IMG/VR virus record: IMGVR_UViG_3300042549_002172
Span: 1 to 26,330 of that record
DNA length: 26,330 bases
Source of the DNA: a virus
Direction: 5' to 3' (one strand)
Positions 11,028-24,765 of the stretch are shown here, in pieces. The translations under genes and the position numbers were made by a program. Numbering within the stretch: position 1 is the first letter of the stretch; each line of letters begins with the position of its first letter. The notes under the pieces were generated by a model. That model saw only the letters and a program-made list of their open reading frames with translations, did no database searches and was not told where the DNA came from.

Positions 11028-12461
11028 ATGGCAATTTTTAAATTAACCCCTGATGTTATTTGGAACGAACAAGGTAAAACCAATGATAATTCGTTACAAC
11101 GTCAGTTATTGTTGAAACCCGAAAAATTAACTCCAGTATTAACTTACCTAATGGGTCAAGAAGATGAAAGATTTCCTCTTTCTTTCTTAACTGAAGGTAT
11201 GCAAAACACAATGGAAATTGAGGGTAACGAATTTGAGTACAACATCATTGGTAGATTATATTCTCCAGTAATGTTAGCTGAATCATTTACTACTTCTACT
11301 CAACCGGGTATTGGTTTCACTCCTTTTAAACTAGTATTTTCTGAAAGAAGATTCGCTAGAGATTACATGATTTTCACGCCTAATGGCTACCAAATCCGTG
11401 TAACTGAAGACCCTATCCAACGTGGTACTAACTGGGAATACACTTTTGTATTAAACGCAACTAATGCAAGTGAATTTGTTCCTGTAACTGAATTAGTAGC
11501 AGGTAACTTGTTCTCACAAGCATTTGCTCCTGTAGCTTCATTTGGTTCAACTGGTAACGAAAGTTTCGCAGCTGCTCCTGGAACTGTAAGAGGTCAAATC
11601 ACTACTATCCGTAAGTCTTTTGCTTGGGAAGGTAATGCAGTTGAGCGTACTATGACTATGCAAGTTCAAACTGACAAAGGTACTACTAACTACTGGTGGG
11701 ATTTTGAAGAATACCAACACATGATATCATTTAAATTAGAATGTGAAATGTTATATTGGTACGCTAAAGATAACCGTGATGATAGAGGTATTATTACTTT
11801 GAAAGATAAGAATGGTATTGCTATTCCTATCGGAGATGGTTTGTTAGAGCAAATTACTAACAAAGATACTTACGGTATCTTAACTACTCAAAAAGTTAAA
11901 CAAGTAGTCCGTGATGCTTTGTATGGTATGTCTGATGCGTCTAAAAAATCTATTACTTTATTTACAGGTGTAGGTGGAGTTGAAGAATTTGATAATGCAA
12001 TGAAAGATGATTTAGCTTCTAAAAGCTATATTAAATTAGATGCAGGTAAATTCGTTTACGGAACTGGTCGTAACTTAGAGTTAAGTGGTTTCTTCTCAAC
12101 TTACCAACATATTGATGGTCATACAATTACTATCAAGCGTGTAAACTTGTTTGATGACGGTCCCAAAGCATTAGCTTCTCCTAAGCATCCTATCTCAGGA
12201 TTACCTTTAGAGTCATATCGTATGGTATTTGTTGATACTTCAACTTACAACGGTAAACCTAATTTAATCATGATTAACAAAAAAGGTCGTGCAATGATTA
12301 GACGTGTTGTAGCAGGTATAAATGAATTACCTTCTGATTTCAAAGGTAACGATTTTAGAGCTTCAGATAAAGATGCTTCAAGCATACATTTATTGAAAGC
12401 TTCAGGAATTGTACTTAGACGTTTTAATACATCTATTGATTTACAATGTAATTTAAGCTAG
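11028..12461 (+). CDS. Major capsid protein
   Basis: The 477-residue protein follows terminase, portal and scaffold, in the expected capsid place. The N-terminus reads NDNSLQRQLLLKPEKLTPV, then LTYLMGQEDERFPLSFLTEG, a pattern I associate with capsid proteins of Bacteroidota phages. The rest mixes long helices with beta-rich segments as expected for an HK97-type fold, though that fold cannot be shown by eye. The codons include more C-ending forms (AAC, TAC, CGT) than neighbouring genes, as in highly expressed genes. It ends with TAG and is followed by the structured stretch 12463-12710. Confidence 0.75.
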   Translation: MAIFKLTPDVIWNEQGKTNDNSLQRQLLLKPEKLTPVLTYLMGQEDERFPLSFLTEGMQNTMEIEGNEFEYNIIGRLYSPVMLAESFTTSTQPGIGFTPFKLVFSERRFARDYMIFTPNGYQIRVTEDPIQRGTNWEYTFVLNATNASEFVPVTELVAGNLFSQAFAPVASFGSTGNESFAAAPGTVRGQITTIRKSFAWEGNAVERTMTMQVQTDKGTTNYWWDFEEYQHMISFKLECEMLYWYAKDNRDDRGIITLKDKNGIAIPIGDGLLEQITNKDTYGILTTQKVKQVVRDALYGMSDASKKSITLFTGVGGVEEFDNAMKDDLASKSYIKLDAGKFVYGTGRNLELSGFFSTYQHIDGHTITIKRVNLFDDGPKALASPKHPISGLPLESYRMVFVDTSTYNGKPNLIMINKKGRAMIRRVVAGINELPSDFKGNDFRASDKDASSIHLLKASGIVLRRFNTSIDLQCNLS

Positions 12462-12462
12462 T

Positions 12463-12710
12463 AAAATAGCAATCTATTTTTAGAAAGGGTCTTGGGTAAC
12501 CAGGCCCTTTCTGAAAATATAAATCCAAGAAGGAGAAACGGAACGTTTCCTTTAGCGGCCAGGGAATTCTTTGGTAATACGCCTGCCGCAAGGCAGTTTA
12601 TATTCGCGCAAGTGAATATAGTCATTTAGAAGTTAAGGGCGAATTGTATAAGGCGTTTTTTGAGACTACGGTCAAAAAATAGTAGAAACTCCTTTTTGGT
12701 TTTTCAAAAA
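12463..12710 (+). ncRNA. Candidate structured RNA element downstream of the capsid gene
   Basis: This stretch holds no ATG-started forward ORF but a chain of hairpins. H0: AAAATAG/CTATTTT, 12463-12480. H1: 12482-12512, 13 bp with one bulge and a GTAA loop. H2: 12530-12552, AAGG..AAACG/CGTTT..CCTT. H3: GCG (12555-12557) with CGC (12580-12582) around CCAGGG/CTTTGG. H4: CTGCC-GCAA-GGCAG, 12583-12596. H5: TATATTCGC-GCAA-GTGAATATA, 12599-12620. H6: T6..GAC-TACG-GTC..A6, 12656-12679. H7: a weak TTTTTG/CAAAAA, 12693-12710. Three loops are GNRA and one is C(UACG)G, a clear sign of selection for RNA structure. G+C is about 42% in 12481-12660 by my count, above its flanks. CGCCT (12580-12584) can alternatively pair with AGGCG (12651-12655). 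It could be a separate small RNA, a 3'-stabilising or processing element of capsid mRNA, or the leader of the next gene. Confidence 0.6.
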
Positions 12711-12742
12711 ATTATAAGAAACTAAAAGAAAAAAAAGAAATA

Positions 12743-13612
12743 ATGAAAAAATTTGTAACAATTTACAGAAGAGAATCTGCTGCTAGACTTCCACAGGAAA
12801 TCAAAGACGGAGCAGTATTAAAGTTAAGTTCAGGAATTACCTCTAGTGGAATACCATTAAAAGGAATTACAATTGAAGAAGAAGAAAAGTTGTTACCAAC
12901 TATTGTAGGAGTTCCTGCAAACCATATTGATTTTTTCAGTAAGGTAAATACTTGGTATAATAATTTATCAAAACCTGTTACTAAAGAAGGTTTAAAATTA
13001 AACATCTCAGTAAGTGCAGCTAGCGGAATGCCAGAAGCTCCTATTGATTATTTACTTTACAAACGTGCTTTAGTTGATAGAAGAGTAGCTAAGAGCAAAC
13101 AGTTATTATTATCTGACCAGTTTTTTACATTTTATATAAATGATGAAACTGAAGAACAAGATAAGAAAATTGCTTCTTTAAGAGAAAAAGAAACAGCTCA
13201 GAAAGAATACTTTAAAGTTAAAGAAAGTGAAGTTTTAGTAGATTGGATTTTACAGGTATACGCTCAGTCATTGGGTGAAAAAACCTCTAAATATGGTAAT
13301 CTATCTAAAGAAGATAAAGATTTAATACTTGACAAAATGGTAACTACGTTGCCTAAGATGTTTGTTAATCTTGCACAAGATAAAGATTTAGAATTAAAAG
13401 CTGAAATCTTATCAATGGTAGATTACCAGGTAATTACAAAAGCAGGTAATAAATTTATAAATGGTACTGAACCAATAGGAGATACATTAGATGAAGCAAT
13501 TGCTTATTTTAAATCTGCTAAAAATCAAACAGTTTATGTTCAACTTAAAGCTAAATTAGAAGCTTTAGGATACAAAATAAAAAAAGAGAAAAAACTAAAA
13601 GATGCTAATTAA
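12743..13612 (+). CDS. Virion-associated protein of unknown function (289 aa)
   Basis: A 289-residue soluble protein that begins MKKFVTIYRRESAARLP, with a beta-type N-terminal domain to about residue 100 and a helical, Lys/Glu-rich remainder (DKKIASLREKETAQKEYF and LKAKLEALGYKIKKEKK). Its place between the capsid and connector-like genes suggests a head-completion, connector or internal virion role. The family was not recognised. A short A/G-rich stretch just upstream is the only possible ribosome-binding context. Confidence 0.5.
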   Translation: MKKFVTIYRRESAARLPQEIKDGAVLKLSSGITSSGIPLKGITIEEEEKLLPTIVGVPANHIDFFSKVNTWYNNLSKPVTKEGLKLNISVSAASGMPEAPIDYLLYKRALVDRRVAKSKQLLLSDQFFTFYINDETEEQDKKIASLREKETAQKEYFKVKESEVLVDWILQVYAQSLGEKTSKYGNLSKEDKDLILDKMVTTLPKMFVNLAQDKDLELKAEILSMVDYQVITKAGNKFINGTEPIGDTLDEAIAYFKSAKNQTVYVQLKAKLEALGYKIKKEKKLKDAN

Positions 13613-16051: not shown

Positions 16052-16080
16052 AAAAAGAGGATAGAAATATCCTCTTTTTT
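16052..16080 (+). terminator. Strong intrinsic terminator
   Basis: A perfect 12-bp stem pairs AAAAAGAGGATA (16052-16063) with TATCCTCTTTTT (16068-16079) around a GAAA loop, and a T run follows. It lies 25 nt after the TAG of the 433-residue gene and should end the head-gene transcript. It is nearly symmetrical and faces no leftward gene. Confidence 0.85.
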
Positions 16081-24539: not shown

Positions 24540-24550
24540 AAAATAGAAAT

Positions 24551-24700
24551 ATGATAACTTTAAGCGAAGAAAAATTAAAAGAATTGGATTCATTTATCCA
24601 AGAGATGCCGACTAAATTTGGTTTACCGTTAATTCAATTTATTAATAAAATAATTGAAGAGCAAAAGCCAAAAGTAGAAGAAGCAGAAGTAGTAAATTAA
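24551..24700 (+). CDS. Very small hypothetical protein (49 aa)
   Basis: The short ORF codes for MITLSEEKLKELDSFIQEMP, then TKFGLPLIQFINKIIEE and an acidic tail. It is probably two helices. It begins 11 nt after the previous stop, has a promoter-like box upstream, and is followed directly by a terminator, so it is likely a real last gene of the unit. Function is unknown. Confidence 0.55.
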   Translation: MITLSEEKLKELDSFIQEMPTKFGLPLIQFINKIIEEQKPKVEEAEVVN

Positions 24701-24714
24701 TTAACTAACTAACT

Positions 24715-24748
24715 AATAAAAGGTAGACTCGTACTCTACCTTTTATTT
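24715..24748 (+). terminator. Intrinsic terminator after the adhesion module
   Basis: A perfect 13-bp stem pairs 24715-24727 (AATAAAAGGTAGA) with 24735-24747 (TCTACCTTTTATT) around a 7-nt loop. The A/T-rich outer part gives the T tract. It separates the adhesion genes from the lysis genes. Confidence 0.8.
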
Positions 24749-24765
24749 AAACACATATAATAACA

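Follow-up and report, generated by a model that had tools for sequence, protein, structure and literature searches.

A strongly folded, lineage-specific region behind the major capsid gene of a crAss-like phage

Directly downstream of its major capsid protein (MCP) gene, a crAss-like phage carries a non-coding element that is real both as sequence and as a fold prediction, and unusual at this position. The fold belongs to the coding strand, is far from chance, and was seen in a single lineage only. Our preferred reading, to which we assign a probability of about 0.48, is that the capsid mRNA of this lineage ends in its own strongly folded 3′ region, standing in place of the simple intrinsic terminator of related phages. 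The element probably ends or protects the capsid mRNA, and perhaps releases a stable RNA of ~180 nt.

Phage and Genomic Context

The window (the whole 26.3-kb stretch of DNA that was analyzed) comes from a single virus record of one metagenomic assembly and is, by gene content, a piece of a crAss-like phage (Crassvirales). Its gene order runs from terminase (PHROG 6681) and portal (PHROG 6547) through a 363-aa gene, the major capsid gene and a 289-aa gene to a probable ring protein; no tRNA or tmRNA was found in the window. Identity of the capsid protein to those of named Crassvirales is at most 31%, and it recurs at 93–99% identity in seven IMG/VR contigs, the others among the best 80 lying at ~50% or less. 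The element is flanked by two genes:

11028–12461, + strand: MCP gene of a crAss-like phage (Crassvirales) (Pfam PF23898 Crass_capsid, 1.1e-75; PHROG 11589 major head protein, 5.6e-78)
12743–13612, + strand: next late gene, 289 aa, found at the same place in relatives (no Pfam and no PHROG match)

The gap between them covers 12462–12742, i.e., 281 nt from the MCP stop codon (TAG, 12459–12461) to the ATG at 12743. The preliminary description had reported a segment free of forward ATG codons, and in fact ATG is absent throughout the gap. A small protein gene was rejected for this reason and because neither of the two ORFs on the minus strand (52 and 55 aa) has a PHROG match. A recoded TAG stop was also rejected, since read-through of the capsid TAG meets TAA at once.

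Predicted Fold of the Post-Capsid Gap

On the plus strand, the region 12440–12740 folds at −90.4 kcal/mol, vs. −59.5 (sd 5.0) for dinucleotide shuffles (z = −6.1, with 0 of 100 shuffles as good); the minus strand gives a z of −2.7. The gap ranks first in a window-wide fold scan (150-nt windows, both strands, 1048 foldings), in which the use of 20 shuffles per window makes the z-scores rough. The minimum free energy (MFE) fold carries three GNRA loops (GUAA, GCAA, and GCAA), all present only in the coding-strand sense, and three GNRA/UNCG loops occurred in 0 of 500 shuffles (mean 0.10). Content of G+C is 42.2% in 12481–12660 compared with 32.1% for the whole window. These results bear out much of what the preliminary description had read from the letters: a series of hairpins in the 281-nt gap, two GCAA loops and one GUAA loop of a kind rare by chance, and a G+C of ~42%, above that of the flanks. 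These predictions give good support to a folded coding-strand RNA.

The whole composite spans ~240 nt and consists of an upstream hairpin (H1) and a larger unit closed by a long-range helix (P1), followed by a U-run and the leader of the next gene:

12475–12519, + strand: upstream hairpin H1, with 18-nt arms (12475–12492 / 12502–12519) that are 89% complementary
12525–12699, + strand: closing helix P1, CCAAGAAGGAG (12525–12535) / CTCCTTTTTGG (12689–12699), 11 bp, pair probability 0.98
12536–12548, + strand: small hairpin AAACG-GAA-CGTTT within P1, uncertain (probability 0.44)
12549–12639, + strand: possible inner closing helix, CCTTTAGC (12549–12556) / GTTAAGGG (12632–12639), probability 0.5, with other pairings competing
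12558–12575, + strand: hairpin GCCAGGG-AATT-CTTTGGT, probability 0.99
12583–12596, + strand: hairpin CTGCC-GCAA-GGCAG with a GNRA loop, probability 0.94
12598–12621, + strand: hairpin TTATATTCGC-GCAA-GTGAATATAG with a GNRA loop, probability 0.90
12655–12680, + strand: hairpin GTTTTTTGA-(8 nt)-TCAAAAAAT, probability 0.88
12700–12704, + strand: U-run TTTTT directly 3′ of P1, from sequence and alignment
12709–12742, + strand: A-rich leader of the next gene, common to the nearest strain, L001 (97% identity from 12709 on), and marking the right edge of the replaced stretch

The arms of H1 are extended by GG/CC up to the GUAA loop, and no U-run comes after it, so that H1 alone is not a terminator. 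Folded separately, the module 12463–12523 reaches a z of −6.7 (0 of 300 shuffles as good) and the module 12524–12706 a z of −4.3. The stretch enclosed by P1 reaches only −2.3 by itself, and the signal of the second module is therefore largely that of its closing helix. The arms of P1 lie 153 nt apart with a multibranched structure between them. A P1-like helix (at least 11 bp, arms more than 100 nt apart) appeared in 10 of 4000 shuffles, and 5 of 4000 had a distant helix of 9 bp or longer running into a U-run. In the window, P1 alone is followed by a run of five U. The hairpin at 12583–12596, followed by TTTATATT, was scored as a weak terminator-like site.

Two finer features of the preliminary description fared less well. 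A C(UACG)G form of the 12655–12680 hairpin is a minor state with a pair probability of ~0.04, the MFE structure having an 8-nt loop instead. The proposed two-state pairing of CGCCT (12580–12584) with AGGCG (12651–12655) likewise reaches ~0.04 in the ensemble, costs 2 kcal/mol when forced, and is not supported. As modeled, the center of the element (12549–12556 / 12632–12639, P = 0.5) has no clear structure and does not behave as a clean switch between two states.

The Same Junction in Related Phages

The nearest strain, L001, matches the window at 95.8% identity across the 5436 bases that lead to the capsid stop and at 97.2% starting with position 12709, but its gap measures 84 nt with a textbook terminator (AAAATTAAGGGG/CCCCTTAATTTT) and U-run. 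In L002–L006, which are ~79% identical upstream, the gaps are 67–72 nt long and each holds a terminator (e.g., AAGTAGAGGA/TCCTCTACTT and AGTAGGGGG/CCCCCTACT ahead of the U-run). By eye, and with no statistic attached, the stems of L001–L006 differ by apparently compensating pairs (GTAGAGGA/TCCTCTAC vs. GTAGGGGG/CCCCCTAC), and the paired changes in L002–L006 suggest a hairpin that is kept while its letters change. The contig of L007 ends inside the capsid gene and is uninformative on the gap.

A hairpin with a U-run was present in 35 of 42 distinct post-capsid stretches of relatives. Post-capsid gaps in the ten named Crassvirales inspected range from 23 to 133 nt; crAss001 and cr10_1 have a hairpin with a U-run there, and the Intestiviridae among the ten have no post-capsid hairpin at all. 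Against the gaps of its relatives the 281 nt of the window are an outlier, which makes a gain in this lineage the simplest history, and on the best reading the element would be a recent, lineage-specific acquisition. The window keeps the relatives' U-run and A-rich leader, and the spacing to the next ATG is nearly unchanged (43 nt from U-run to ATG, vs. about 40 in L001). P1 occupies the position of the relatives' terminator stem, structured RNA replaces the loop, and H1 is added upstream. An insertion sequence or MITE with the P1 arms as terminal inverted repeats was rejected, as no target duplication is seen and the earlier terminator stem has been exchanged and not split by an insertion.

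Four other relatives (L021, L024, L025, and L054) have two small Lys/Arg-rich ORFs (e.g., MPLKKKRKENPIRKTTKGKGANYRPTKSGA... in L024) after the capsid terminator and ahead of the following structural gene; these ORFs are absent from the window.

Searches for Known Families and Further Copies

Among 4227 Rfam families, none scored at or above its gathering threshold, in line with the preliminary description, which had recognized no known class. The best sub-threshold scores are at chance level (e.g., mir-465 with 21.6 vs. 65 bits and BTnc231 with 18 vs. 80.4 bits). A group I or II intron was considered for the GNRA loops and a GAGACUA string and was rejected, given that none of the Rfam intron models scored even at E = 10 and that the capsid gene has no interruption. 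The GOLLD and ROOL models gave no match, neither at the gathering threshold nor with the E-value limit relaxed to 10. These RNAs, named earlier as precedents in kind, resemble the element in being phage-borne and of elaborate secondary structure, but they are poor precedents: they are several times larger, widespread, defined by covariation and often located near tRNA islands (PMC12286853), whereas the element matches no Rfam family and its window has no tRNA.

Searches by blastn found no relative of the element in 50,697 phage, 72,556 plasmid, and 20,395 E. coli records; in 30 related virus records the flanks alone gave similarity, and no copy was seen elsewhere in the window. The virus records searched may leave out those very near the window's own genome. 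One scan for genomes turned up only two metagenome-assembled genomes, both of phyla other than Bacteroidota. A covariance model built from this single sequence gave no convincing second copy in 47–49 virus records including the window; the only other match, in L007 (9.8 bits, partial, E = 0.035), was taken as chance. Six exact patterns of 15–19 nt had chance matches only across IMG/VR (L096–L105, L120–L148, and L150–L152), which share the pattern alone with little around it and in many cases lie within evident coding sequence; such patterns detect close copies only, and their absence elsewhere is not proof that there are no copies.

Because no homologue was found, no covariation backs any helix of the element. 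The preliminary description had put forward an undescribed class of structured RNA, a claim that the comparison does not sustain: gaps of the same genus, even that of L001 with its 96% identical flanks, are without the element, and no second copy was found. A new RNA class is not demonstrated for what is a single copy with conservation seen nowhere, and a single unreplicated copy does not by itself define one.

A Proposed Structured 3′ End for the Capsid Transcript

Of the roles offered in the preliminary description, a 3′ element belonging to the abundant capsid mRNA is the best fit, because the folded stretch sits exactly at the site of the relatives' capsid terminator and keeps that terminator's U-run. 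In this best reading the host mRNA would be that of the MCP gene. Neither the gap nor the sequence shortly before it has a Bacteroidota-type −7 box (TANNTTTG) on the plus strand, as would be expected if the element is transcribed together with the capsid gene. The events that we infer, from transcription and termination to protection and release or processing, would run as follows. A late transcript would pass through the capsid gene, and H1 and the GNRA-capped hairpins would fold while emerging. Closure of P1, together with the U-run, would then end transcription, probably only partly, at about 12700–12705, leaving more capsid mRNA than downstream mRNA. The folded 3′ end would block 3′ exonucleases, and an RNase III-like cut at H1 could free an RNA of ~180 nt (12524–12706).

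Intrinsic terminators are normally short-looped, and stems closing over 153 nt are unusual. P1 (12525–12535 / 12689–12699), with TTTTT at 12700–12704, provides the stem and direct U-run of an intrinsic terminator, whereas the usual short loop (about 3–12 nt) is replaced by the 153 nt between the arms, and a terminator scan with loops of 3–8 nt found no site at P1. It is doubtful that an 11-bp stem over such a distance would form fast enough to stop RNA polymerase. The U-rich 3′ arm of P1 also counts against this reading.

The closest known counterparts are the capsid-gene intrinsic terminators of crAss-like phages (L001–L006 and Bacteroides phage crAss001), which agree with the element in their place after the capsid stop, in a stem followed by a U-run, and in the distance to the next gene. 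They differ in a loop of 4–12 nt, compared with 153 nt of folded RNA here, in the lack of the extra upstream hairpin H1, and in total size (~35 nt there, ~240 nt here). In phiKZ, an RNA of roughly 100 nt comes from the 3′ UTR of PHIKZ298 and has two stem-loops, the second probably a terminator (PMC8545117). Both are structured RNAs behind a phage gene with no ORF and a last stem that may be a terminator; that of phiKZ is a detected transcript of ~100 nt, whereas the predicted fold described here is larger and multibranched. In phiX174, terminators of graded strength lie between capsid genes, and read-through yields stepwise transcript levels (PMC9135205).

If the element works as proposed, the most abundant mRNA of a phage can, within a species, lose its plain terminator and gain a far larger folded 3′ end instead. 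L001 is a natural control strain that differs at the junction and shares 96% of the flanking DNA, and the two otherwise near-identical junctions make an effect of the 3′ structure on capsid mRNA directly testable.

Alternative Explanations

The element could instead be a noncoding RNA gene in its own right (an RNA "moron") that recombined between two late genes, has targets in trans in the host or the phage, and is terminated by its own P1 and U-run. Its recent gain relative to both flanks, high local G+C, and closed multibranched shape with GNRA loops would suit such a gene, as would a sigma-70-like match (TTTACA-16-TAAAAT, 10/12) just ahead of it at 12440–12467. Yet such matches are no more frequent than expected by chance, no promoter motif of Bacteroidota type was found at the element on the plus strand, and the phages, plasmids, E. 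coli, and related virus records searched held no second copy. We consider this explanation unlikely, though it is the strongest competitor.

Rather unlikely, too, is a functionless relic of recombination, in which foreign multi-hairpin junction DNA was swapped in and enough was kept for a passable gene junction. Terminators often carry GNRA loops, and a string of terminator-like hairpins, such as the weakly scored one at 12583–12596, could have brought them in; the occurrence in one genome only, with strains of 96% identical flanks doing without the element, points the same way. A relic is harder to reconcile with an inner part that folds together with P1 as one closed unit (P1 probability 0.98) and with a fold that is undecayed although the region is non-coding.

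We hold it improbable that the element is a new kind of structured phage RNA of ~180 nt that moves between phages as a unit and plugs into the terminator positions of highly expressed late genes; its outer stem would close onto the resident U-run and so serve as both terminator and functional RNA. Control of the next gene by a two-fold switch, i.e., a leader or attenuator of 12743–13612, is about as improbable: the element is directly upstream of that gene and has alternative central pairings within 2 kcal/mol, but the CGCCT/AGGCG state has a probability of only ~0.04, L001 has the same A-rich leader, the site of any translational control, although it is without the element, and there is no match to a known riboswitch family. 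An assembly artifact that joined unrelated metagenomic sequences, suggested by the single record and by the failure to find a second contig with the element, is barely credible, since both edges fall within one gene junction, the gene order of the closest relative (L001) is kept on either side, and the old U-run and leader are kept at the right edge.

Other Structured Gaps in the Window

An ordinary intrinsic terminator follows a 433-aa gene at 16052–16079, so the phage does use plain terminators elsewhere. The gap at 24540–24765 holds a plain terminator (AAAAGGTAGACTCGTACTCTACCTTTT) and an ORF that starts with the ATG at 24552 and falls just short of the 50 aa required for listing. Strong folding is also predicted for a second non-coding stretch, 2625–2765, whose long A+T-rich 21-bp stem on the coding strand is followed by a TATATTTG box; the fold z for 2601–2750 is about −5.
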